Assembly: GCF_015711645.1 (NCBI RefSeq)
Contig: NZ_JABTEX010000004.1
Span: forward strand, 248,001 to 312,000
DNA from: Planomonospora sp. ID82291
GTDB lineage: Bacteria > Actinomycetota > Actinomycetes > Streptosporangiales > Streptosporangiaceae
Reading direction: 5' to 3'
DNA: 64,000 nucleotides
Below, piece after piece: positions 38,798-56,044 of the stretch. A program made the position numbers and the translations under genes. The notes beneath the pieces were generated by a model. It worked only from the letters and a program-made list of their open reading frames with translations, was not told the origin of the DNA and made no database searches. Each line of letters starts with the position of its first letter. The first letter of the stretch is position 1.

Positions 38798-39568
38798 ATG
38801 CACGACGTCTTCATCAACTACCGCACCGGGGACGGAGAGAAGAGCGCCGCCCTGATCGCGATGAGCCTCTCGGACCGCTTCGGGAAGGACCGGATCTTCC
38901 GGGCCTCGCAGTCCATCGGACCGGGCGAGCACTTCCCCGCGAGACTCCTCGGCGCGGTGCGCCGCAGCGCCGTCCTGCTCGCCGTCATCGGCCCGGAGTG
39001 GATCCGCTCGTCCGCCGCGTTGCACGACCAGGACGACTGGGTCCGCAAGGAGATCGCCGAGGCGTTCGCCTGCGGAATACCGGTCATCCCGGTCCTGGAG
39101 GGCCGCACGACCGAGCGGCTGGACGGCGCGCTGCTCCCGGCGGAACTGGTCCGGCTCGCCGAGGTCCAGTACGTCCGCCTGGACTATCAGAACGTGCAGG
39201 CGGACCTCACGCGCATCGGTGACATGCTGGCCGCCCGGGTGCCGTCCCTCAAGGAGGCTGACCGCCTCGCCTCGCGGCCACCCGGTCCGGACGCCGCCGG
39301 CGACGCGGCGGGCAATGCGGCGGGCAATGCGGTGGGCAATGCGGCGGGCGACGTGTACGGCACGAGCGTGCAGAGCCGCGACATCACCGGAGACGTGGGC
39401 ACCGTCACCAAGCACAGTCACGGACCGGTGCACCTGGGGAAGGGCGATCTCTACAGCAATTCCCCGCGTTTCTCCGGCGACGGCGCGACGTACGTCGCAG
39501 GGGACAACCAGGGCGGCATCCGCCACCGGTTCGGCGGTTCCCGTGGAAACGAGGACGGCGACCGTTGA
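38798..39568 (+). CDS. TIR-domain protein with C-terminal Gly/Asn-rich interaction motif
   Basis: 256 residues. Residues 1-145 form a TIR domain: HDVFINYRTGD (box 1), DRIFRASQSIGPGEHFPARL (region of the BB loop), LLAVIGPEWI, and W81-x3-E85 in DWVRKEIAEAFACGIPVIPVL, where E85 is the expected NADase glutamate. Bacterial TIR effectors cleave NAD+ or make signalling cyclic ADP-ribose isomers. Residues 161-184 are a 4-residue repeat (AGNA). Residues 185-245 are Gly/Asp/Asn-rich (DVYGTSVQSRDITGDV, GDLYSNSPRFSGDGATY) and resemble the start of the next protein. GGAGGG precedes the ATG. The stop overlaps the next start (TTGA). Confidence 0.9.
   Translation: MHDVFINYRTGDGEKSAALIAMSLSDRFGKDRIFRASQSIGPGEHFPARLLGAVRRSAVLLAVIGPEWIRSSAALHDQDDWVRKEIAEAFACGIPVIPVLEGRTTERLDGALLPAELVRLAEVQYVRLDYQNVQADLTRIGDMLAARVPSLKEADRLASRPPGPDAAGDAAGNAAGNAVGNAAGDVYGTSVQSRDITGDVGTVTKHSHGPVHLGKGDLYSNSPRFSGDGATYVAGDNQGGIRHRFGGSRGNEDGDR
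39302..39349 (+). repeat. Four 12-bp tandem repeats in the TIR gene
   Basis: GACGCGGCGGGC followed by three copies of AATGCGG(C/T)GGGC encode GDAAGNAAGNAVGNAA-type linker. The units repeat the codon AAT, which is rare in such G+C-rich genes, so the array looks recently amplified. The frame is kept whatever the copy number. Confidence 0.88.
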
Positions 39569-41556
39569 GCGACCAGATCATCTCTTCCGTGCTCAGCGAC
39601 GGCGGAGAGGTGCACGCGGGCCGGGGAGACCAGTACAACAGCGACGGGCCCCAGTACAACAACTGCACCTTCGCCGCATCGGCCGGAGCCGGGGGGAAGC
39701 ACCCCCGAACCGTCGCCGACGACCAGTTGCTGTGGCTCTGGCGGCGCTTCGTGCACCCCGGAGGATTCGGCAGGGCCCGAAGGGTCCTGTCCTCCTGCGG
39801 CACCGTGCTCCTGGACGGGACACCGGGCAGCGGACGGACGGCCGCGGCGAAGATGCTCCTGTACGAATTGCGCTCCGGCCCGGAGACGTTCCGCGAACTG
39901 CTGCCGGACGAGGAGCGGGAGGGGCACCCGAACGTCGAGGGCGTCGGTGACGGTGACCTGGTGTGGCTGGACCTTGCGACCGCTTCCGAGCGGCTCTGGA
40001 GTGAGGTCCACGGAGGGCTTCCCTCGTTGCGGAAGACGGTGCAGGAGCGCGGCGCCCGGCTGGTGGTCGTGCTGCCGGGCGGCAGGGTCGAGCGGCTCCA
40101 CCCGGAACTCGGTCAGTATCGCGTCGAGATCACTCGTCCGCCGGGCGCGCAGGTGTTCCAGCGCTACCTGCGCCTGGCCGGCGTCCCCGCGTCCGACACC
40201 GTGGCGCCGGTGCCCGCGCTCTCGGGTTTCCTGCGCGCGAACCGGTCGATGCAGGAGATCGCCGAATTCGCCGAGCGGGTCGCCAGGGCGAGGAGCGCTC
40301 CGGGCGCGGGAGGATTCGCCACCTGGTGCGAGAACGCCCGCGCCGCGGTGACCGATCGGAGCGCGGAGGTCGCCCGGTTCGTCGCCCAGCTGCGCCGGGG
40401 ACCGCAGCGCGCCCTGCTGCTGACCGCGGCCATGCTGCACGGTGCCCACGCCGACGCCGTCCACGGAGCCGGGGCCGTGCTGCTGCGCATGGTCGAGAAC
40501 CCGCAGGAGGAGTGCCCGCTGCTGGAGCGCGCGGACCTTGTCGAGAGGCTCCACGAGATCCACGCGGAGCCCGACGCCCACGGCAAGGTGTCGTTCAGGA
40601 AGCCCGGGTACGACGCGGCGGTCCGTGCCCATTTCTGGAGGCACATGCCGGAACTCCGCGAGCACCTGCAGGCGTGGGTGGAGAAGACCGTCGGGTCTCC
40701 GGATCTCGATCGAGGCGACCGCGATGGTCTGGTCAGGCGGTTCGCCGAGCAGTGCCTGCACGACAGATACCGGACGGCGCTGGTGTCGCTCCTGTGGCGG
40801 TGGACGGCGGGGCCCTCCAGAAGCGAGCTCAGGCTGCGGGCGGCCGCCGGGCTTCTGGAGCAGGGTCTTCAGCATGACGAGCACGGTCGGTTCTTCCGCG
40901 AAAAGATCTTCGAGTGGTCGCTCAAGGAGGACCTGCCCGACGGACTGTCCCAGGTGCTCGTCGAGGCATGCTGGCAGACGATGGCCGTCCGCCATCCGGA
41001 CCAGGCGATGGTCCGCCTCCACCACCTGGCCCGGCGGGAGGGCCGGGCGACCCGGGCGCGCGAGGCGCTCGTCGGGCTGGTGCGGGCCGATCCCCGCCTC
41101 CACCGGAGCATGCTGGAACGGCTCTGCCGCCACTTCACCGGAGAGCTGGGGAGGAGGGAGTGGCCGCTCGACGTCGACCTGTTCCTGGAGCTCGCCGAAC
41201 CGCGGCTGATCACCGACGGCGGGACGCACGCCCACGCGTTCCTCGCCGACACCGCGGTACGGGAGCGGCTGGCGGCCGGCTGGAGTGCGGCTTTCCGGCT
41301 CCGCGCACCTGATGAGTGGACCCCGCAGGCGCACGCCTGGCTCTCCGCGGCCTCCCGGCAGGGGCGGTACCGCGCCCGGCTCGTCGACGTCCTCATGGAG
41401 GGCAGTGAGCGGCGGATGGACGTCCGGGCGCGTCTCTACGTCCTCGCGCGGGGCGTGGACCGTTCCACGGCGGTGGGGCGGCGGGACGTCGACTCCGTCG
41501 CCGAGCACGTCTATCGGAGGACCAACGCCGCTCGGGCGGCCCGGCCCGGTGAATGA
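39565..41556 (+). CDS. P-loop NTPase with arginine-variant Walker A, coupled to TIR
   Basis: 663 residues, TTG start overlapping the TIR stop (TTGA). Residues 1-44 are Gly/Asn-rich (GGEVHAGRGDQYNSDGPQYN) and match the TIR protein's C-terminal motif. The P-loop GTPGSGRT (85-92) has Arg91 where Lys is usual. Candidate Walker B strands are LVWLDLATA (about 132-140) or LVVVLPGG (about 163-170). The remainder is helical, with W/R-rich repeats (about 380-650) like a TPR/HEAT-type sensor array. The layout, ATPase core plus C-terminal repeats preceded by a homotypic-like motif, is reminiscent of STAND/NLR-type sensors, but the NTPase is not a clear NACHT or NB-ARC member. Probably the sensor or switch that triggers the TIR protein. 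Confidence 0.78.
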   Translation: MSDQIISSVLSDGGEVHAGRGDQYNSDGPQYNNCTFAASAGAGGKHPRTVADDQLLWLWRRFVHPGGFGRARRVLSSCGTVLLDGTPGSGRTAAAKMLLYELRSGPETFRELLPDEEREGHPNVEGVGDGDLVWLDLATASERLWSEVHGGLPSLRKTVQERGARLVVVLPGGRVERLHPELGQYRVEITRPPGAQVFQRYLRLAGVPASDTVAPVPALSGFLRANRSMQEIAEFAERVARARSAPGAGGFATWCENARAAVTDRSAEVARFVAQLRRGPQRALLLTAAMLHGAHADAVHGAGAVLLRMVENPQEECPLLERADLVERLHEIHAEPDAHGKVSFRKPGYDAAVRAHFWRHMPELREHLQAWVEKTVGSPDLDRGDRDGLVRRFAEQCLHDRYRTALVSLLWRWTAGPSRSELRLRAAAGLLEQGLQHDEHGRFFREKIFEWSLKEDLPDGLSQVLVEACWQTMAVRHPDQAMVRLHHLARREGRATRAREALVGLVRADPRLHRSMLERLCRHFTGELGRREWPLDVDLFLELAEPRLITDGGTHAHAFLADTAVRERLAAGWSAAFRLRAPDEWTPQAHAWLSAASRQGRYRARLVDVLMEGSERRMDVRARLYVLARGVDRSTAVGRRDVDSVAEHVYRRTNAARAARPGE

Positions 41557-41588
41557 ACGTCGGAACGACGGATCAGGGAGACACGCTC

Positions 41589-42674
41589 ATGAGTTCTGGC
41601 CGCAACACCGTGACGATCTACTTCACGGTCTTCGGCGGGTTGATCCTCGCAGGCCTCGTCCTGTTCGCCCCCCGGCAGATCTGGAGCTGGCTGCTGCCGG
41701 TTCTGCTGCTCGCGGGCCTGGCGGTGGCGGGGACGAAGGTCTTCGGACGCCGGCCGGTCCCACCGCCACGGCCGGAGCCGTACCGGCCCGTGATCCCGGT
41801 GGAGTCCGGAGAGCAACGCGTCGTCCAGGTGCCTCTCCCGAGCAACGAGGAGGACTACGACTTCCTGTTCTCCGCGGTGGTGCGATGGTCGCCGCTCGGT
41901 GCCGCGGTGAACGAGTCCGCGATCAGCCGGGAAGGTCTGGCGATCGACGCGATCCTGGAGCGTGCCCGGAGGATCACCGAGGATCGGCACCCCGCCAGGG
42001 CCGCGCTGGTCCAGCACGAACTGAACGGCGCACTGGGCAGGATGCAGCCGGATGACACGGGGTGCCTGCGGGCGATGGCCGAGTCCGTCACGCTCACACT
42101 CTCCGGCCACGACCAGGAGCGGCTGGACAAGATGGCCACGGTCCGCAAGAACAGGGCGCTCTGGGAGCACGAGAGGAAATACGAGCAGAGCAAGCGGGAG
42201 TACCTCGGTGAGGACGTGCTGAAGGACACCGGCAGTGCCGTGGTCTGGTGGCTGGCCAGGAACGACGACCAGGTGGACCGGACGGTGAAGGACATCGGGG
42301 CTCTCGCGCAGCTCTCCTCTGCGGCGAACAACACGGAGGTGCCCGAGCGGTTCCGGCATCTCGTGCCCGATCCGGGCGCCGCCCGGTCACCGGACGCGTC
42401 GGCGGCGTATCCGGATCGCACCGGGACGACCGGATCCCCCCGGGAGGGGACCTCCGCCGCCGATCACTTCGACGCCTTCCTCCGCGCGATGGACTTCCCG
42501 GAGGGCGACCCGCAGCGTGCCCTGCTCGCCCGGCAGGTGGCCGAGCGCGTCGCCGAGTACGGCAGGCAGGAGGTGGCGGACGGCCTCCTGCGACGGTTCG
42601 ACCCGTCCGACGCTCCCGCGCCGGGCGGGTTCGATCCTTCGGTGGAGAGCCCGGACGCACTACCGGGTGCCTGA
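41589..42674 (+). CDS. Two-TM protein with possible SPFH-like cytosolic domain (third effector-operon gene)
   Basis: 361 residues. Two transmembrane helices at about 9-26 and 31-48, then a cytosolic region: VVQVPLPSNEEDYDFLFSAV, AISREGLAIDAILERARRIT, LVQHELNGALGRM, ESVTLTLSGHDQERLDKM, then a charged coiled coil. Strand/helix order and phrases such as FLFSAVVRW and ILERARRIT suggest an SPFH/band-7-like fold, but I am not certain. The C-terminal 110 residues are Pro/Gly/Asp-rich. The ATG at 41589 follows GGGAG; an ATG at 41553 overlapping the NTPase stop is an alternative. In the operon it could be the membrane anchor for the TIR/NTPase pair. Confidence 0.68.
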   Translation: MSSGRNTVTIYFTVFGGLILAGLVLFAPRQIWSWLLPVLLLAGLAVAGTKVFGRRPVPPPRPEPYRPVIPVESGEQRVVQVPLPSNEEDYDFLFSAVVRWSPLGAAVNESAISREGLAIDAILERARRITEDRHPARAALVQHELNGALGRMQPDDTGCLRAMAESVTLTLSGHDQERLDKMATVRKNRALWEHERKYEQSKREYLGEDVLKDTGSAVVWWLARNDDQVDRTVKDIGALAQLSSAANNTEVPERFRHLVPDPGAARSPDASAAYPDRTGTTGSPREGTSAADHFDAFLRAMDFPEGDPQRALLARQVAERVAEYGRQEVADGLLRRFDPSDAPAPGGFDPSVESPDALPGA

Positions 42675-42704
42675 CCGCCCGGACGCCTCCGGGCGGTCAG
42701 GCAC
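42667..42704. terminator. Perfect hairpin between the two convergent conflict operons
   Basis: A 16-bp perfect stem, GTGCCTGACCGCCCGG (42667-42682) and its complement (42689-42704), with a 6-nt loop. It overlaps the stop codon of the membrane protein gene (42672-42674). It can terminate both operons. No T-run, as expected in this genome. Confidence 0.85.
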
Positions 42705-42790: not shown

Positions 42791-43369
42791 TCAGCGGCGC
42801 TCCGGCTCCGGCGGGGTGGGGTCGATCACGCGCACCCGGGGATCGTCCGCCGGGTAGCCGAGCCGCCGGACGAGATCGGATGTCCCGCCGGGGCCGTCGC
42901 CGTCCTGCCCGTTCCAGACGAGGAGAACGCGAGGTCGGGCGTCCATCCGGCGTGCCAGCGCCACCATGCGGGCGTTGGTCAGGGCGAACACTCCGCCGCA
43001 GGCCTCCTCCCCACCGGCGCGGCCCGTGCCGTCGGGGGGCGGGAGCACCTCGGCGACCCGGAGCAGGCGGCGGAAGCGCTCGCCCCAGCCGGTGCCCGGA
43101 AGGTCCACCGACCGCCGCCGGAACTCCTCGACGGGCAGTGCCAGGCAGAGCAGGACGCGGGCGCCGCGGGCGTGCCCCTCTTCGGCGGCGATCACGTCTG
43201 CTCCGCGGGCGCCTCCGCAGATCACGGTCGTGTCCGGCCCGACCGCCCAGGCGTCGAAGGCGGCGCGGATCTCCTCCGTCACCCAGGGGATGCGCGAAGG
43301 GGGGAACCGGGCGGCCGGACGGCCGGGGGCGTCGATCATGTGACCGGCCGCGATGATCACACGAGTCAT
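42791..43369 (-). CDS. SLOG-like (Rossmannoid nucleotide-binding) protein
   Basis: 192 residues. The diagnostic piece is TTVICGGARGADVIAAEEGH (about 47-66), the GG-x-RG-AD motif of YspA/SLOG-type proteins, after VIIAAGHMIDAPG and with a later LTNARMVALARRM and VLLVWNGQDGDGPGGTSD. SLOG domains bind or process nucleotides and occur as sensors or effectors in TIR, cGAS-like and related conflict systems. The start codon shares one base with the preceding gene's stop (TGATG), so the two are coupled. It is the last gene of the reverse operon. A standalone lysine-decarboxylase-like activity is less likely. Confidence 0.72.
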   Translation of the reverse strand: MTRVIIAAGHMIDAPGRPAARFPPSRIPWVTEEIRAAFDAWAVGPDTTVICGGARGADVIAAEEGHARGARVLLCLALPVEEFRRRSVDLPGTGWGERFRRLLRVAEVLPPPDGTGRAGGEEACGGVFALTNARMVALARRMDARPRVLLVWNGQDGDGPGGTSDLVRRLGYPADDPRVRVIDPTPPEPERR

Positions 43370-44721
43370 CACCCCAGCATGCCGTACAGCTCCGCGAGCA
43401 GTTCCCGCAGCCCCTCCGCCGCGCCCTGCGGCGTCCCCGGCCGCCGCGGCAGGAGGCGCACGCCGAGTTCCAGGTCTTCGAGCGTGCTCCGGAGCTTCCA
43501 CCCCGTGACGCCCTCCTGCCGGAATCGTCCGACGAGGCCGCGGGCCCGGTCCAGGTCGCCGTCGTCGAAGGCTGAGCCGAGCAGCGTCAGCCGGATCCAC
43601 TCGTCGTGCGGGTCCCGTGCCAGGGAGATCTCGCGCGCCGCCCGGGCGACGACCGCGACCTCGTCCGCCAGGCGCCCGTCGCCCTCCGCGTCCCGCAGCC
43701 GGTAGAGGCGGGGCAGGTTGGAGGACGGGTAGTAGTCGTTGAGGTCGAGACGCATCCCCTGCTCGTAGGCGGCGATGGTCTTGCCGAGGAAGCCGCTCGA
43801 CCGGGGGGACCCCGCGTTGCTCCACATGAGTTCCTTGTACCGGCCGCCCAGCAGGCCGTACCGCTCGGACGTCGGGCCCGAGTGCTTGATCAGCTGCTCC
43901 AGCGCCGCTGCGGACTCCTCCACCCTGCCGGTCCTGGCCAGCGCGAGCTGCCGTTGCTCCACCACCGACGGATGCCGCCGGAGCACGGGGGGCAGTCCTT
44001 CGACGTAGGCGAGGACCTCGGCCCACGTCAGGTTGTCGCGGATCAGCTCGATCAGTTCGAGGACCACCGACTCGCGCACGACGGGCCTCGTGCCGTACCG
44101 GGTCACCAGGTCGCGGGTCCTGCTCCGCCGATCCTCGGCGTCCGCGGTCAGCCGGATCGCGCCGGCGCCGGCCTCGAATCCCGACAGCTCACCCACGAGG
44201 TCGCTGAAGGCGGCCTGCCGGAAGCCGTCCTCGGGGTCGGGGTATCCCGGTATCGCGTCGAAGACGGGGGAACGTCCGGGGAGCACTCGTTCGATCCCCG
44301 CACGCAGGACGGCCCGCGCCTCGGCGGCCGCCTCGGCGCCGCAGGCGCCGTCGGAGAGCGGGTACTCCAACCGCCGGATCTGCTCCAGGTCGAACACCGG
44401 CTCCGCCCACTCCGCCGCGACCAGGATGCAGTGCCGCCGTGCGGCGTGACGGACGCCGACCTCGTAGTAGACGTTGGAGTTGGCGAGCGAGACGTCCGCG
44501 ACCACGAGGTCGGCGAGCGCCAGCCGCCGGATCATCTCCACGATCACCAGCGGCCCGAGGTCGCTGTCGGCGCGGACGGCCCGGTAGCCGAGATCTTCGA
44601 GGACGGGCCGGTGCACCTCATGCCAGAGCACGTTGAAGTCCACTTCGCGCGGGACGCCGTCCTCCCGCCTCATCGTGGACTTCCTGCCGTACGGCATGAC
44701 CATGAAGGCGATCTCCGGCAT
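43369..44721 (-). CDS. Deoxyribosyltransferase-fold (DRHyd-like) plus TPR/DUF4071 protein, ASK1 N-terminus type
   Basis: 450 residues. N-terminal about 110 residues: IAFMVMPYGRK, VLEDLGYRAVRAD, and the signature LADLVVADVSLANSNVYYEV with D76, N83, E87 and H92 in the positions of nucleoside deoxyribosyltransferase-like hydrolases. The rest (about 160-450) is helical, TPR-like, as in the MAP3K TRAFs-binding region (DUF4071): VEGLPPVLRRHPSVVEQRQLALARTG (read across 2 helices), LGGRYKEL, GKTIAAYEQGMRLDLNDYYP. The same domain pairing forms the regulatory N-terminus of animal ASK kinases. Probably a nucleotide/NAD-directed effector or sensor. It lies 105 bp after the RyR gene and overlaps the SLOG gene by 1 bp. 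Confidence 0.8.
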   Translation of the reverse strand: MPEIAFMVMPYGRKSTMRREDGVPREVDFNVLWHEVHRPVLEDLGYRAVRADSDLGPLVIVEMIRRLALADLVVADVSLANSNVYYEVGVRHAARRHCILVAAEWAEPVFDLEQIRRLEYPLSDGACGAEAAAEARAVLRAGIERVLPGRSPVFDAIPGYPDPEDGFRQAAFSDLVGELSGFEAGAGAIRLTADAEDRRSRTRDLVTRYGTRPVVRESVVLELIELIRDNLTWAEVLAYVEGLPPVLRRHPSVVEQRQLALARTGRVEESAAALEQLIKHSGPTSERYGLLGGRYKELMWSNAGSPRSSGFLGKTIAAYEQGMRLDLNDYYPSSNLPRLYRLRDAEGDGRLADEVAVVARAAREISLARDPHDEWIRLTLLGSAFDDGDLDRARGLVGRFRQEGVTGWKLRSTLEDLELGVRLLPRRPGTPQGAAEGLRELLAELYGMLG

Positions 44722-44826: not shown

Positions 44827-46581
44827 TCACCCCGAGTGTCCCCCGCACCGCCTCTCCCGTCCAGGCGGAGCGGTCCCCCTTGCGTGGTCACCGCTCACGC
44901 GAACGATCTGGAAGCCCGCTGTGGCGAGGACGGCGGGCAGGTTGCGGACGGTGGCGCGGTCCTTCTCCCGGGAGGACTCCGGCAGCCGGCTCCAGTCCTG
45001 CAGATCGGGGTGGCGCCTGCCGGCGTCGTCACGGGCGGGACCGTGTGTCCAGCCGTCCTCACGGCGCTCGCGCATCCAGCGCTCGTGCTCCATCACGGCG
45101 AGCCGGTCGATCTCCTCCTCCCGGAACGAGAAGGCGGAGTCCGGGCCGATCCGCGGGGCGAGGAGGCAGCCGATGCTCCGGAGTTTGCGGCCGATGTCCG
45201 CGGCCTGGGTGAGGTTGGCGTTCCTGAGCGACGCCGGCAGTTCTTCCCAGGGGGCCAGCGAGGCGTTGATGTCCGGGGTGTCGCCTTTCTTCAGGCGCTC
45301 GTAGGCGTAGTCCTCGTGCACCGCCCTGGCCAGTTGCTCGACGAGGTCCTCGGCGATCAGCTGGGGATCGACCGCCTCGTCCGTGACGGCGAACACGTGC
45401 AGGGCGCCTCCGAGGTCGTCCAGCAGGCCGGGACCGCGGAAGGCGTCGTCGAACACGCCCTGCTCCACCCGGACCACCAGCGACCCCGGCTCCCGGGTCC
45501 ACAGCCGCACGCTGGTCAGCGCCGTCCGCAGGGCCAGGTTCTCGTCGTGGTGGCAGACGTACACCCGCTGGGGCGGCTCGGCGGGGATCCGCTCCAGTTC
45601 CTCGAGACCCGCCCCGCGCAGCTCCAGATGCGCGCCGACGAACGCGTACCGGCGGAGCAGCGCGGGCAGCACGCTGTCGGCGCGGGGGTCGACGACGGTT
45701 ACGGGCAGGGGCCGCTGCTCGTGCGGGACGCGCAGCCGCCAGTGCCGCGCCAGTTCGATGACGAGCGCGCGGCCGAAGTCGTCGAGGCCGACCAGCACGA
45801 CCGGCGAGGACGTGCGGAGCGGATGGCGGTCGAGGAGCACACGCGCGGCGAGCTGGTCGAGGTTGAAGAAGTCGAGCCGGAGCCCGGGAGGGTCCGGCAT
45901 GCCGAGCCGGCGGGCGCGCAGCGCGGTGCACAGGTCCAGGTCGGGGATGAGGGCGTAGGCCCGGAGCGGTTCGGACGCGGATCTCTCGAGGCCTTGGGCG
46001 GCCAGGACGATCCCCGTGTTGGCGGAGCCGTCCGTCTCGCAGGCGTACACGACGTCCGCGCGATGGGCGCCCGCCGCCCGGAGCACCTCGGGATCGCGGG
46101 CGTCGCCCGTCACGGTGAGGATCCGGCCGCGGCCCGGCGCGGGGGGAGGCGCGCCGGTGACGGCGACGACGCGATGCCCGGCTCCGTGGAGCCGTGCGGT
46201 CAGCGCGTGCGCCGCGGGACCGTCCCCGCAGACGACGGCGTGCCGTCTGGACCGGCGGGCCCTGATCCGCTGGATCTCGGCGGAGAGCAGCAGGCGGGTG
46301 GTCTCGACGAGCGCGTAGATCGTCACCACGGGCGCCGCGAAGCGGGCGAACTGCAGCATCGGGGGGATCGCGCTCGTCCCGTCGATCGGCGTCGGATCAA
46401 GGACGAAGAGCTGGAGGGTGTAGTAGAGGAGGTCCCACGGGGACCGGGTGAACTCGGTGTGCGACGACAGGTGGGCCCGCATGCCGAGATAGCCCAGGAC
46501 AAGGACGCCGCCCGTGAGGAGCGCGAACAGCAGGCGGATGACGGCGGAGGGGGTGCGCAGCGCGGACAGGGGATTCTTCAC
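44827..46581 (-). CDS. Membrane TrkA-N/RyR-domain protein (channel-like)
   Basis: 584 residues. TM helix at about 13-33, a pore-like amphipathic segment LLYYTLQLFVLDPTPIDGTS (about 51-70), TM at about 78-98, without the K+-filter GYG. Two Rossmann NAD-binding units follow: HAVVCGDGPAAHALTARLHG (about 114) and VVLVGLDDFGRALVIELARH (about 262), as in TrkA/RCK. The C-terminal RyR domain is clear: HERWMRERREDGWTHGPARD then HPDLQDWSRLPESSREKDRA. In bacteria, RyR domains attached to TM/TrkA modules occur in nucleotide-sensing conflict operons. First gene of the reverse operon; an A/T-rich 185-bp upstream region (CATATAACC on the minus strand near 46705) is a likely promoter. Confidence 0.86.
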   Translation of the reverse strand: MKNPLSALRTPSAVIRLLFALLTGGVLVLGYLGMRAHLSSHTEFTRSPWDLLYYTLQLFVLDPTPIDGTSAIPPMLQFARFAAPVVTIYALVETTRLLLSAEIQRIRARRSRRHAVVCGDGPAAHALTARLHGAGHRVVAVTGAPPPAPGRGRILTVTGDARDPEVLRAAGAHRADVVYACETDGSANTGIVLAAQGLERSASEPLRAYALIPDLDLCTALRARRLGMPDPPGLRLDFFNLDQLAARVLLDRHPLRTSSPVVLVGLDDFGRALVIELARHWRLRVPHEQRPLPVTVVDPRADSVLPALLRRYAFVGAHLELRGAGLEELERIPAEPPQRVYVCHHDENLALRTALTSVRLWTREPGSLVVRVEQGVFDDAFRGPGLLDDLGGALHVFAVTDEAVDPQLIAEDLVEQLARAVHEDYAYERLKKGDTPDINASLAPWEELPASLRNANLTQAADIGRKLRSIGCLLAPRIGPDSAFSFREEEIDRLAVMEHERWMRERREDGWTHGPARDDAGRRHPDLQDWSRLPESSREKDRATVRNLPAVLATAGFQIVRVSGDHARGTAPPGRERRCGGHSG

Positions 46582-52564: not shown

Positions 52565-55500
52565 TCAGCTCTCCACCGCGTGTCGGCTCCCGAAACGACG
52601 CAGGACGTAGTTCGCCCAGACCGGTTCGTATGGAGCGCCCTGCAGGTCGACGGCGGCGGCCACGAGGCGGGTCAGCTCGTCCGGGTGCACTCCGGAGGCG
52701 GCGAGGAGGGAGAGGGCGCACGCGCGTACTCTCCAGTCCGGGTCCTCGGTCGCGAGCCGTACCGTCTCCTCGTCCGGTCGCGGCAAGCGGATTCTTTCGG
52801 ATATCAGTCGGACGACCCCCTCTTGCGGAAAATGAATTGATACCGCATCGGATTTGATCTGATCCTCCGGGAAATAGCGGAACGCCTGGACGTACAGCCA
52901 GGCGATTCGATATCCGGGATGGCCGGACTCAAGGAAAGGAACCAGCTCGTCAGGAGTGGTCCCGGTCTTCAGCAGTGCTCTGGCGATCACCGCAGGGTCC
53001 GGTCCGCCCAAATCGTCATTGATTCTTCGGAGAATCACCTGTTTCACCTCGTGGGCATGCCAGGGAGGGAAGTCGGCCAGGACGTCACAGCACGCCGTGT
53101 AGGTCTCCAGATCCTGGGTCCGGGTCGCCAGGCTCATCAACCATCCGTATGGATTGTCGTGCGGGGAACTATGCGGGCCGTCGTCCAGGGAGTTTACGAT
53201 CAGGGAGTTCATGGTGAGGCGGAGCGAGGCCTGAGCGGGCAGCAACCGGACTGCTTCTTCGAACAGCCGGTCCGCCGCCGCTGTGGGGGACTGCCATATC
53301 CCCCTCACCCCGGCCATTATCGCGTGTGCCAGCAGGCGGCCCGATGGATCGAGGGCGCCGTCGATCCTTTCGGCCGCGAGACCCAATTGGACCGGGTCGT
53401 TCCATGATCTGGTTATCAGGAAGACAGCGATGCGGAAATAATCCAGGTCCAGATTGCGTGATCCCGGGAACACCTTCGACGCGGCGAACCGGATCGCCAG
53501 GCAGAGGGCGTGCCGGTCACCGGCCCAGCGGTCGCAGAGGTAGGGGACGGCGATCTCCGCGATGTTCTGGCGCTCCCGGCCCACCCGTGCCGTCAGGGCG
53601 TGCAGCAGCGCGTCATCCAGCGACCAGCTCCGGACCAGTGCCCGGAGGGCGTCCGCGCGGATCCGGGTGTGCCGCTCGGAGTCGAAGAGCGCGAGCAGGG
53701 TGAATCCGACGTGTTCGTTGCCCGGCCACTCGCGCTCCAGCACGGCTATCGCCCCCCGGCTCGCCGCCTCGTCGCCGCGCAGCGACGCGAGCGCGAACGC
53801 CAGCCGGTCGCCCCGTCCGCGCAGCGCGACCTCTAGTTGGAAGGCGATCAGCCGGACGCGGAACTCGCGGTGGTGGGAGAGTTCCGCGGCGAGGCCCAGG
53901 ACCCGGGAGGAGGGCGGGACCGCGTCCCCGATCAGGAAGAGCGCGGACAGGAACCCGGTGATCGACGCGTCCCGTGTCGGGGTGCGTCCCTGCGGTGCGA
54001 GCACATGGACGAACCCGACCACTTTGTCGACCAGGCCCTGCGCCCACGGCTCGGCCCCCGCCTCGCCCAGGAGCCGGGCGGCGAAGGCGACGGCGTCCTG
54101 GTGGAATCCCGGGGTCACGGACGACGGACGCGGCGTCAGATGCTCGACGTGCTCGATCACCTTGCGGATCGGGGAGCCCTGGCCCTTGAGCATCGCGGCG
54201 AGCAGCAGCAGGACCTCGCGCCAGTCGTCCGAGGACCAGTGGGCGCCGAAGACCTCCTCGGTGAGCCAGCCGAAGTCGGACTCGCGCGCGTTGAATTCGG
54301 CGAGTACGTGGCCCGCGGCGAAGAACTCCATGAAGGTGCGGTGGACGAAGCCGAAGACGTTCTCCCCGATCTCGGCCAGCACGTAGGTGCGCTCCCGCAG
54401 GTGGTCGATGATCTCCTCGGCGATGCCGCGGGCCTCGCCGGGGGAGCGGCGGTAGGCCTCCTGTAGGTAGCCGGAGACGATCTCGATGAGGGACCCGCGG
54501 GCGATCGCGTTGAGCTCGCGGCCCGGCCGGGCCCCGTGGAGCATGGCGATGGCGACGCGCTGCAGGAGGTGCGCCTTCTGCTCGGCGGTCATGACGAAGC
54601 TCAGTAGTTCCTCGCGGCCGATCTTCTTCCGTTTGACGTCCCAGTCCTCCAGCAGCACCTCGGTGCACTTGCCGTACAACTGCCAGCGGCGCTCGGGCAG
54701 GTCGGAGTGCTTGTAGATGACGGCCATCATGGTCAGCAGGAGCGGGTTGCCGGCGAGCTCGCGCAGCCGGGCGCTCTCGGAGATGCGGTGGACCAGGCTG
54801 TGGGCGTCCCGCTCGTCGCCCTGCAGGGTGTAGAACTCGTACCACTTCGGCACGAAGGACTTGATCTCCGGCATGCCGAAGTCGAGCAGCGTGTAGTGGG
54901 TGAAACCCGCCTGGTCCAGTTCGGTGCCGTCGTAGCCCGCCAGTCGTGACGTCACGACCACGGCCGCCTGCGGGAAGGCCTCGGCGAACGCCCTCACCTC
55001 ACCGGTGATCCGCGCGCGATCGTTCGGGCCGAGCACTTCGTCCAGGCCGTCGAAGAGGACGGCGGACTCCCCATGGGCGAGCAGGTCCTTCAGCCCGGCC
55101 GCGTCGAGGTCCATCAGGTGGTCGCGCTTCAGGGTGTCGGCCATGTAGTCGAGGAGGTTCCGCGAGGGATCCAGCGCGTACTGCCGCAGCTCCACCAGGA
55201 TCGGGACCGGCGCCTCCGGATCCTCGCAGAGCCGCAGCATCCTGCTCAGCAGCAGGGTGCTCTTCCCGCTGCCGGGACCTCCGAGGACGACCTGGCGGTC
55301 CTCCCGGCCGAGCACGGCCGCGGCGGACCCGTCCGCCGCTGGCGCCAGCGGCGGTCCGCCCGCGAGGTCTCCGGAGTCGGGGTCGGTGCCGTCATCCTGG
55401 AAGAGGTCGTAGTCGGGCCGCCCGCTGCGGCAGGGCTGCGAGACGAACACGTCGTTCAACGGGATCTCGATCGCCCGGTCCTGCCGGGCGCCCATGATGA

Positions 55501-56044
55501 CCTGGAGGCGTACCAGCCGGTGCCGGTCCGTGACCGCGACGCGGTAGGCGCCCCAGTTGGCCAGATGGCCGGGGCGTGCCTCCTCCTGCTCCCGCCCCCA
55601 GCGGTGCACCGCGGCGGCCAGCTCGGCACTGAGATCGTTGGCGTCGGTGAACTCGGCCGTGAGGAAGTCCGCGCGCAGCCTCTCCCGCAGACTCTGGACC
55701 CGGGAGTGGGCGGAGAACTCGATCTGGCCCGTGTCCCAGGTGGCCCCCTCCTTCAGGACGAAGGCCAGGATCGGCTTGCCGAGCTCCTGCGCCCTGAGGA
55801 ACTCCAGCTCCGTGATGGAGCGGTCACGGCCCTCCGGGACGAAGCCGTACCGGAGGGCCACGATGCAGATGTAAAGGTCGCAGGCGGCCACGTCGGCCAG
55901 GCAGCGGTCCAGTGGCCGCACGTTCTCGGCGACGTAGTACTCCATGGCGACGTCGGTGTGGCCCATCTGCCGAAGCGTCACGCGGACGCGTTCACGGCAT
56001 TCAGCCAGGTCCTGAAACGTGGACGAGACGTATACCTTCGCCAT
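52565..56044 (-). CDS. DUF4062-NACHT-HEAT STAND protein (NLR-like, candidate antiphage bNACHT)
   Basis: 1159 residues. Residues 1-100: DUF4062, a TIR-like Rossmannoid (MAKVYVSSTFQDLAECRERV, YICIVALRYGFVP). Residues about 240-520: NACHT NTPase with Walker A GGPGSGKST (255-263), Walker B AVLFDGLDEV (328-337), sensor VVVTSR (362-367) and the GNPLLLTMMAVIYK helical segment. Residues about 540-620: winged-helix-like region (FGFVHRTFMEFFAAGHVLAE). Residues about 650-1159: HEAT-like helical repeats, the presumed ligand-sensing part. This is the effector-NTPase-sensor layout of NLRs. No partner gene is adjacent. The 3' third has lower G+C and more A/T-ending codons than its neighbours, which suggests acquisition. 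Confidence 0.9.
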   Translation of the reverse strand: MAKVYVSSTFQDLAECRERVRVTLRQMGHTDVAMEYYVAENVRPLDRCLADVAACDLYICIVALRYGFVPEGRDRSITELEFLRAQELGKPILAFVLKEGATWDTGQIEFSAHSRVQSLRERLRADFLTAEFTDANDLSAELAAAVHRWGREQEEARPGHLANWGAYRVAVTDRHRLVRLQVIMGARQDRAIEIPLNDVFVSQPCRSGRPDYDLFQDDGTDPDSGDLAGGPPLAPAADGSAAAVLGREDRQVVLGGPGSGKSTLLLSRMLRLCEDPEAPVPILVELRQYALDPSRNLLDYMADTLKRDHLMDLDAAGLKDLLAHGESAVLFDGLDEVLGPNDRARITGEVRAFAEAFPQAAVVVTSRLAGYDGTELDQAGFTHYTLLDFGMPEIKSFVPKWYEFYTLQGDERDAHSLVHRISESARLRELAGNPLLLTMMAVIYKHSDLPERRWQLYGKCTEVLLEDWDVKRKKIGREELLSFVMTAEQKAHLLQRVAIAMLHGARPGRELNAIARGSLIEIVSGYLQEAYRRSPGEARGIAEEIIDHLRERTYVLAEIGENVFGFVHRTFMEFFAAGHVLAEFNARESDFGWLTEEVFGAHWSSDDWREVLLLLAAMLKGQGSPIRKVIEHVEHLTPRPSSVTPGFHQDAVAFAARLLGEAGAEPWAQGLVDKVVGFVHVLAPQGRTPTRDASITGFLSALFLIGDAVPPSSRVLGLAAELSHHREFRVRLIAFQLEVALRGRGDRLAFALASLRGDEAASRGAIAVLEREWPGNEHVGFTLLALFDSERHTRIRADALRALVRSWSLDDALLHALTARVGRERQNIAEIAVPYLCDRWAGDRHALCLAIRFAASKVFPGSRNLDLDYFRIAVFLITRSWNDPVQLGLAAERIDGALDPSGRLLAHAIMAGVRGIWQSPTAAADRLFEEAVRLLPAQASLRLTMNSLIVNSLDDGPHSSPHDNPYGWLMSLATRTQDLETYTACCDVLADFPPWHAHEVKQVILRRINDDLGGPDPAVIARALLKTGTTPDELVPFLESGHPGYRIAWLYVQAFRYFPEDQIKSDAVSIHFPQEGVVRLISERIRLPRPDEETVRLATEDPDWRVRACALSLLAASGVHPDELTRLVAAAVDLQGAPYEPVWANYVLRRFGSRHAVES

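Follow-up and report, generated by a model that had tools for sequence, protein, structure and literature searches.

A dual-RCK, RyR-domain channel-like protein from Planomonospora sp. ID82291 as a candidate nucleotide-gated membrane effector of actinobacterial TIR/SLOG signalling

The best reading of a 584-residue protein encoded in the genome of Planomonospora sp. ID82291 is that of a channel effector, opened by a nucleotide and not selective for K+, that serves a signalling or immunity module; about even chances can be given to this reading. The window analysed here is a stretch of 64,000 nucleotides (contig NZ_JABTEX010000004.1, positions 248,001 to 312,000), and all coordinates below refer to it. 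The anatomy of the protein, the residues of its ligand pocket, the absence of a K+ filter and its recurrent gene pairing were obtained by computation. To judge from gene context, the protein is probably a channel opened by a nucleotide alarm signal, because in many actinobacteria its relatives adjoin enzymes of the kind that makes such signals, and recurrent co-encoding with TIR or SLOG genes is what a nucleotide-gated effector predicts.

The open reading frame occupies positions 44827–46581 on the minus strand, with a GTG start at 46581, a ribosome-site-like GGGAGG 5' of the start, and a stop at 44827. Full-length homologues are 29–65% identical, and the overlapping plus-strand reading frames at the locus, which are without homologue support, were therefore rejected as artefacts of GC-rich sequence. 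The assignment of the product as a RyR-domain dual-RCK channel-like protein draws on the reading frame, Pfam, the family alignment, AlphaFold2 and a fold match to GsuK; according to Pfam and AlphaFold2, the order of domains is TM1, pore helix, TM2, two tandem RCK domains of the TrkA type and a C-terminal RyR domain. Pfam detects RyR (PF02026) at 1e-17 over aa 491–560, with 64.6 bits against a cut-off of 27.4, and TrkA_N at 1.2e-8 over aa 116–199, while neither a SIR2 nor a Macro domain was matched by Pfam in the protein. The AlphaFold2 monomer (51 sequences) has a pLDDT of 89.0 and a pTM of 0.84, with an alpha-helical RyR domain and two Rossmann-type RCK domains. When this model was compared with the PDB by Foldseek, GsuK came first (2e-9, many chains, ADP- and NAD-bound forms among them), followed by TrkA and then human RyR3 Repeat12; similarly, a profile search with the family found GsuK at 8e-16 and also TrkA.

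In the AlphaFold2 model, TM1 (aa 11–39; 46465–46551, minus strand, as are all parts of the protein) coincides with a hydropathy peak at aa 19–27 and is followed by a pore-like re-entrant helix (aa 48–60; 46402–46440) and by TM2 with its cytoplasmic extension (aa 74–110; 46252–46362), which has an ARF.AP.VT core and an arginine-rich end. From this arginine-rich end, both termini of the protein should be cytoplasmic. Alignment of the family shows that Y53, L56, Q57, L58, F59 and P84 are near-invariant and mark a conserved pore-helix segment, after which no TVGYG-type filter follows in the window protein. A pattern search for the K+ filter motif (TxGYG/TxGFG) found none in the window protein or in 50 of 51 homologues, with one pattern match in the remaining homologue. 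The first-pass annotation, made from the sequence alone, had described two transmembrane segments around a pore-like helix without a K+ filter, and this is borne out by the structure model and the pattern search.

The same annotation had read the middle of the protein as two NAD-binding Rossmann motifs, of which the two folds stand and the NAD signatures prove degenerate. RCK1 (TrkA_N; aa 115–252; 45826–46239), recognised by Pfam, by its Rossmann topology in the AlphaFold2 model and by profile matches to GsuK and TrkA, has an invariant G119, but its second strand ends without an acidic residue. RCK2 (aa 261–403; 45373–45801) is a diverged Rossmann domain, recognised in the AlphaFold2 model and by Foldseek matches to GsuK and TrkA, with the residues GLDDFG...D298; the counts in its alignment columns are 51/51 for G265, 45/51 for F269, 32/51 for G270 and 29/51 for D298. 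In GsuK, ADP and NAD+ have been reported to open the channel by binding at RCK2 (PMC3510474). Since G265 is kept throughout and the other three residues often, a comparable nucleotide site in RCK2 is possible but not assured, and of the two RCK folds at most RCK2 looks capable of classical nucleotide binding.

The C-terminal RyR domain (Repeat12 type; aa 413–563; 44893–45345), also named by the first-pass annotation, is confirmed by the Pfam match and by the fold match to RyR3 Repeat12; in the AlphaFold2 model it spans about aa 413–561. For this domain, a phmmer search of the PDB reached 3.9e-24 against the RyR1 chimera 6uhi, and the nearest folds found by Foldseek include human RyR3 Repeat12 structures with ATP, ADP and AMP-PCP. 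RyDEP, a mycobacteriophage RyR-domain protein, has been reported in a 2026 preprint to bind and cleave 2'/3'cADPR through H75, W78, H100 and D117, with the Asp of D117 as the proton donor, whereas the majority of phage RyDEP homologues assayed bound the ligand without hydrolysis (PMC13232231). In the window protein, the pocket core (aa 499–541; 44959–45087) consists of H499, W502, H524 and D541, whose spacing of +3/+25/+42 is identical to that of RyDEP; the equivalence is drawn from published numbering, this spacing, a match to PDB 35tm and the RyR1 chimera alignment. The four residues also line up with RyR1 in the 6uhi alignment. The match to 35tm chain A, which is possibly RyDEP, covers 46 residues at equal length, and searches of phage records with the window RyR domain gave weak matches only. 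The pocket residues thus match those of ADPR or adenine binders in RyDEP and human RyR3, and the nucleotide-type ligand proposed for this domain is supported at the level of residues.

Conservation of the pocket differs between its positions. Of 51 homologues, 45 have the HWH triad, with D at the fourth position in 32 (HWHD) and N in 13 (HWHN); all 31 channel copies paired with a SLOG gene keep the triad, and none of the copies with a broken pocket (QWSx) is so paired. Among relatives, the position of D541 is often N, A, S or L, with the Asp absent from about one homologue in three, and a mycobacterial-type branch of the family has L there (HWHL). The catalytic His/Asp dyad of RyDEP is present in the window protein, but its Asp is not conserved across the channel family. 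Because the proton donor of RyDEP is so often replaced, the alignment suggests that the RyR domain of this family more likely senses its ligand than hydrolyses it.

Downstream of the channel gene, after 105 bases, lies a gene for a 450-aa protein (43369–44721, minus strand) with a TIR/deoxyribosyltransferase-like N-terminus and a sensor TPR region (TPR-S, Pfam 1.1e-15); the N-terminus was matched by Pfam Nuc_deoxyrib_tr at 0.2 and by a PADLOC TIR effector profile at 4.6e-4. Eight bases further downstream follows a gene for a 189-aa SLOG protein of YAcAr-like type (42791–43360, minus strand), which matched Pfam YAcAr at 0.0045, below the cut-off, and the profile of channel-associated SLOG proteins at 6.8e-6, a weak match in a small search set. 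No terminator-like or promoter-like sites were found in this run of three genes, the promoter scan covering the sigma-70 consensus only, and the intergenic RNA showed no more structure than shuffled sequences. The TIR gene of the window (38798–39568, plus strand) sits about 5 kb away in a separate convergent operon, beyond an inverted repeat (42668–42703, read by eye) between the two converging operon ends. The repeat has perfect 16-bp arms and a loop of 4 bases, and it likely terminates transcription from both sides, although it has no T tract. Because of this separation, the product of the window TIR protein is not supported as the channel ligand, contrary to the initial proposal of an effector answering a TIR product or another nucleotide; the wider form of that proposal gains from TIR and SLOG co-encoding in the family, while the partners in the window itself are TPR-S and SLOG rather than TIR. 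The plus-strand run at 38798–42674, which encodes the TIR protein, a possible nSTAND3 ATPase (3.8e-6, just below the cut-off) and a membrane protein, is a conflict-type operon of its own, and its TIR and possible nSTAND3 proteins share a Gly/Asn-rich region with a GD.Y..N motif. A further NTPase of the conflict-system kind, a DUF4062-NACHT protein of 1159 aa (52565–56044, minus strand), is encoded close to the channel operon and suggests that the neighbourhood is defence-like.

Relatives of the channel occur in 36 of 347 genomes of the order. The 69 named-record loci with relatives belong mostly to Streptosporangiaceae, Micromonosporaceae, Amycolatopsis, Catenulispora and Actinomycetospora, together with one Desulfomonile MAG, and no plasmid-borne relatives were found. 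PADLOC gave no family match for the channel at E up to 1 and NCBIfam gave no defence equivalog match, so that no library names the system. Two loci, L061 and L063, were first aligned as orthologues and then removed, as L061 is a DUF1003-RyR fusion with which L063 aligns; by Pfam, this fusion of RyR to a DUF1003 membrane protein is a second membrane scaffold bearing the domain. Neighbouring genes in relatives were called by a simple GC-frame script, and their boundaries are approximate. The channel tree of 85 rows is a quick one with long branches, for which reason the number of independent partner pairings is only approximate.

In 31 of the 85 tree rows, the window copy included, a SLOG-fold gene of about 150–175 aa is no more than two genes away from the channel, usually directly downstream and often overlapping by 4 to 11 bases. 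Sequence searches with the partner found nothing in the PDB and only weak SLOG matches in Pfam, so its fold was predicted; the model has a pLDDT of 93.6, and its best match is YpsA (3e-8), with DprA, ShosA and LOG also found. By this predicted fold, the channel-adjacent family is a SLOG protein. It occurs in one to four copies in 201 of 347 genomes of the order, mostly without this channel, and with about 8000 genes per genome the number of chance adjacencies among 85 loci should lie well below one, as an order-of-magnitude estimate. In an Actinoplanes-like clade (L120, L121, L122, L125 and L130), the pocket is broken (QWSx/QWTx) and the SLOG gene is missing, while the sister Micromonospora clade has both an intact pocket and the gene; such joint absence agrees with co-dependence, but it amounts to little more than a single evolutionary event. 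Away from the channel, SLOG family genes lie directly after XRE-TPR or TPR regulator-like genes (L191, L193, L196 and L202) or after a TIR-like gene (L207), often with overlapping ends; because of this recurrence, the family is a general actinobacterial signalling module. At another locus (L064:5430-7904), a single protein joins RelA/SpoT, LSDAT (TRPM-type SLOG) and RyR, a fusion that ties together nucleotide synthesis, SLOG and RyR.

Meanwhile, other relatives are accompanied by TIR genes. Same-strand TIR genes (TIR_2, some of them ThsB_TIR) adjoin the channel in four rows, namely L050 (G244), L152 from Dactylosporangium, L158 from Micromonospora avicenniae and L167 from Actinomycetospora, which are four separate label changes on the tree; in L167 the channel is flanked by two TIR genes. 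In eight genomes searched, there were just 2–7 TIR_2 genes per genome. A TIR-nSTAND1 gene lies next to the channel on the opposite strand in row L188. TIR genes also accompany the channel on a divergent branch of mycobacterial type. Six loci of class family f6 carry this diverged channel, which is matched by the family profile at 2e-28 to 3e-36 and has HWHL in its pocket; TIR-PknH_C genes adjoin it in L210, L216, L217 and L218, and TIR-nSTAND1 genes are adjacent to it or near it in L211 and L212. The channels of the first four have an extra C-terminal region, and their neighbour genes join TIR with an extracellular sensor domain like that of PknH; a host signal of this TIR-PknH type may be what mycobacteriophage RyDEP targets. 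In several Amycolatopsis loci, genes upstream of the channel combine a weak match to deoxyribosyltransferase with a methyltransferase-like region, and some of these loci also carry an NB-ARC/TPR gene. TIR, DRHyd and SLOG have been described as one superfamily, for which the making of messengers by base release is proposed (PMC7159879).

Taken as a channel effector, the protein would assemble as a tetramer into a gated pore that resembles GsuK but has no K+ filter, with the TM1-P-TM2 unit as the pore, two RCK domains per subunit building a gating ring and the C-terminal RyR domain as an added ligand sensor. Under stress or infection, a co-encoded enzyme of the TIR/deoxyribosyltransferase/SLOG superfamily would make an adenine-nucleotide or ADP-ribose-class messenger; in the window, this signal module is likely the TPR-S and SLOG pair directly downstream of the channel. 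The messenger would bind the HxxW...H...D pocket of the RyR domain and strain the gating ring, whereupon a poorly selective pore would open, the membrane would be depolarised and the cell would be arrested or die. Pore formation, the identity of the ligand, the direction of gating and the immune role are what we infer from the computed features. Against the effector reading stand the many copies with neither partner, the frequent occurrence of the SLOG family apart from this channel, and the lack of a PADLOC match or an NCBIfam defence equivalog. The more specific proposal, that TIR/SLOG nucleotide immunity here has a true ligand-gated channel effector opened through RyR by a cADPR-class signal, which would be a new class, is tentative and on balance rather unlikely.

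The same features can be explained otherwise. A somewhat unlikely though serious explanation is a housekeeping nucleotide-status channel or leak valve without an immune role, in which RyR senses ATP, ADP or AMP and RCK2 senses ADP or NAD+, so that membrane potential is tuned to the energy state. This explanation keeps its place because most channel copies (50 of 85) are without a SLOG gene or an adjacent same-strand TIR gene; all 18 rows of family f19 are without such a partner and have neighbours that look housekeeping, such as peptide deformylase. The adenine nucleotides in the nearest RyR3 Repeat12 folds and the gating of GsuK by ADP and NAD+ also agree with it. However, SLOG or TIR coupling recurs in separate lineages, in some cases with overlapping start and stop codons, and the distribution over the genomes of the order is patchy, both of which speak against the housekeeping explanation.

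It is improbable that the protein is no channel at all but a nucleotide receptor or scaffold fixed in the membrane, whose RCK-RyR part oligomerises and whose two-helix unit anchors it or clusters to disrupt the membrane. The family is without a selectivity filter, and ThsA TM-macro effectors have been proposed to act through a two-helix TM unit that clusters when ligand binds (PMC11204291), but a mere anchor would need neither the near-invariant pore-helix residues and P84 nor a full-length fold that best matches GsuK. A signal-clearing enzyme or sponge, whose RyR domain would hydrolyse or sequester the nucleotide signal of the partner at the membrane in the manner of phage RyDEP and its homologues, is very improbable. 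The window protein does have all four pocket residues of RyDEP, the catalytic dyad included; however, the catalytic Asp gives way to other residues in roughly one homologue out of three, and likewise on the mycobacterial-type branch, most of the phage homologues assayed bound without hydrolysing, and the dual-RCK channel body would be left unexplained.

Direct action of cADPR-type molecules on ryanodine-receptor domains has long been debated in animal Ca2+ signalling. If the more specific proposal is true, a RyR channel gated by a cADPR-class signal would be a bacterial counterpart of the animal link between cADPR and the ryanodine receptor, and phage RyR proteins of the RyDEP type would trace back to captured or mimicked effector sensors. 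With its small size, single RyR domain and intact ligand residues, the protein is a compact, purifiable test case for RyR gating by ADPR or cADPR isomers, and RyR channels become a candidate effector class for actinobacterial TIR/SLOG signalling, including that of mycobacterial-type genomes.

Among known systems, GsuK of Geobacter sulfurreducens, a dual-RCK, multi-ligand-gated K+ channel (PDB 4gx0/4gx1/4gx2), has the same TM-P-TM unit and two tandem RCK domains in one chain; unlike GsuK, the window protein has no K+ filter, has degenerate nucleotide motifs in its RCK domains and bears an extra C-terminal RyR domain. RyDEP and the phage RyR proteins (PF02026) belong to the same domain family with four equally spaced ligand residues, but RyDEP is soluble and serves the phage as a glycosidase or sponge, whereas the window protein belongs to the host, sits in the membrane, has RCK domains and comes from a family in which the Asp is not conserved. 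Animal RyR1-3 carry a homologous cytosolic Repeat12 domain with an adenine-ligand pocket on a channel, but their size and architecture are unrelated, and their RyR repeats stand in tandem pairs instead of singly. The Thoeris ThsA TM-macro protein (PMC11204291) resembles the proposed effector, being a membrane protein that has a sensor domain of the ADPR class and is co-encoded with TIR proteins; it differs in its Macro domain in place of RyR, its two-helix TM unit and its lack of RCK domains. In the window, the channel operon contains no ThsB-type TIR gene and the channel is neither SIR2-SLOG nor TM-macro, as distinct from Thoeris, while the relatives L050, L152, L158 and L167, unlike the window, do have the adjacent same-strand TIR gene. 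A literature search that did not extend to the 2015 SLOG/TIR paper of Burroughs et al. found no description of a dual-RCK channel that joins a RyR sensor to TIR/SLOG partners. The parts of the window system are each of known kinds, and it is their combination that appears to be new.
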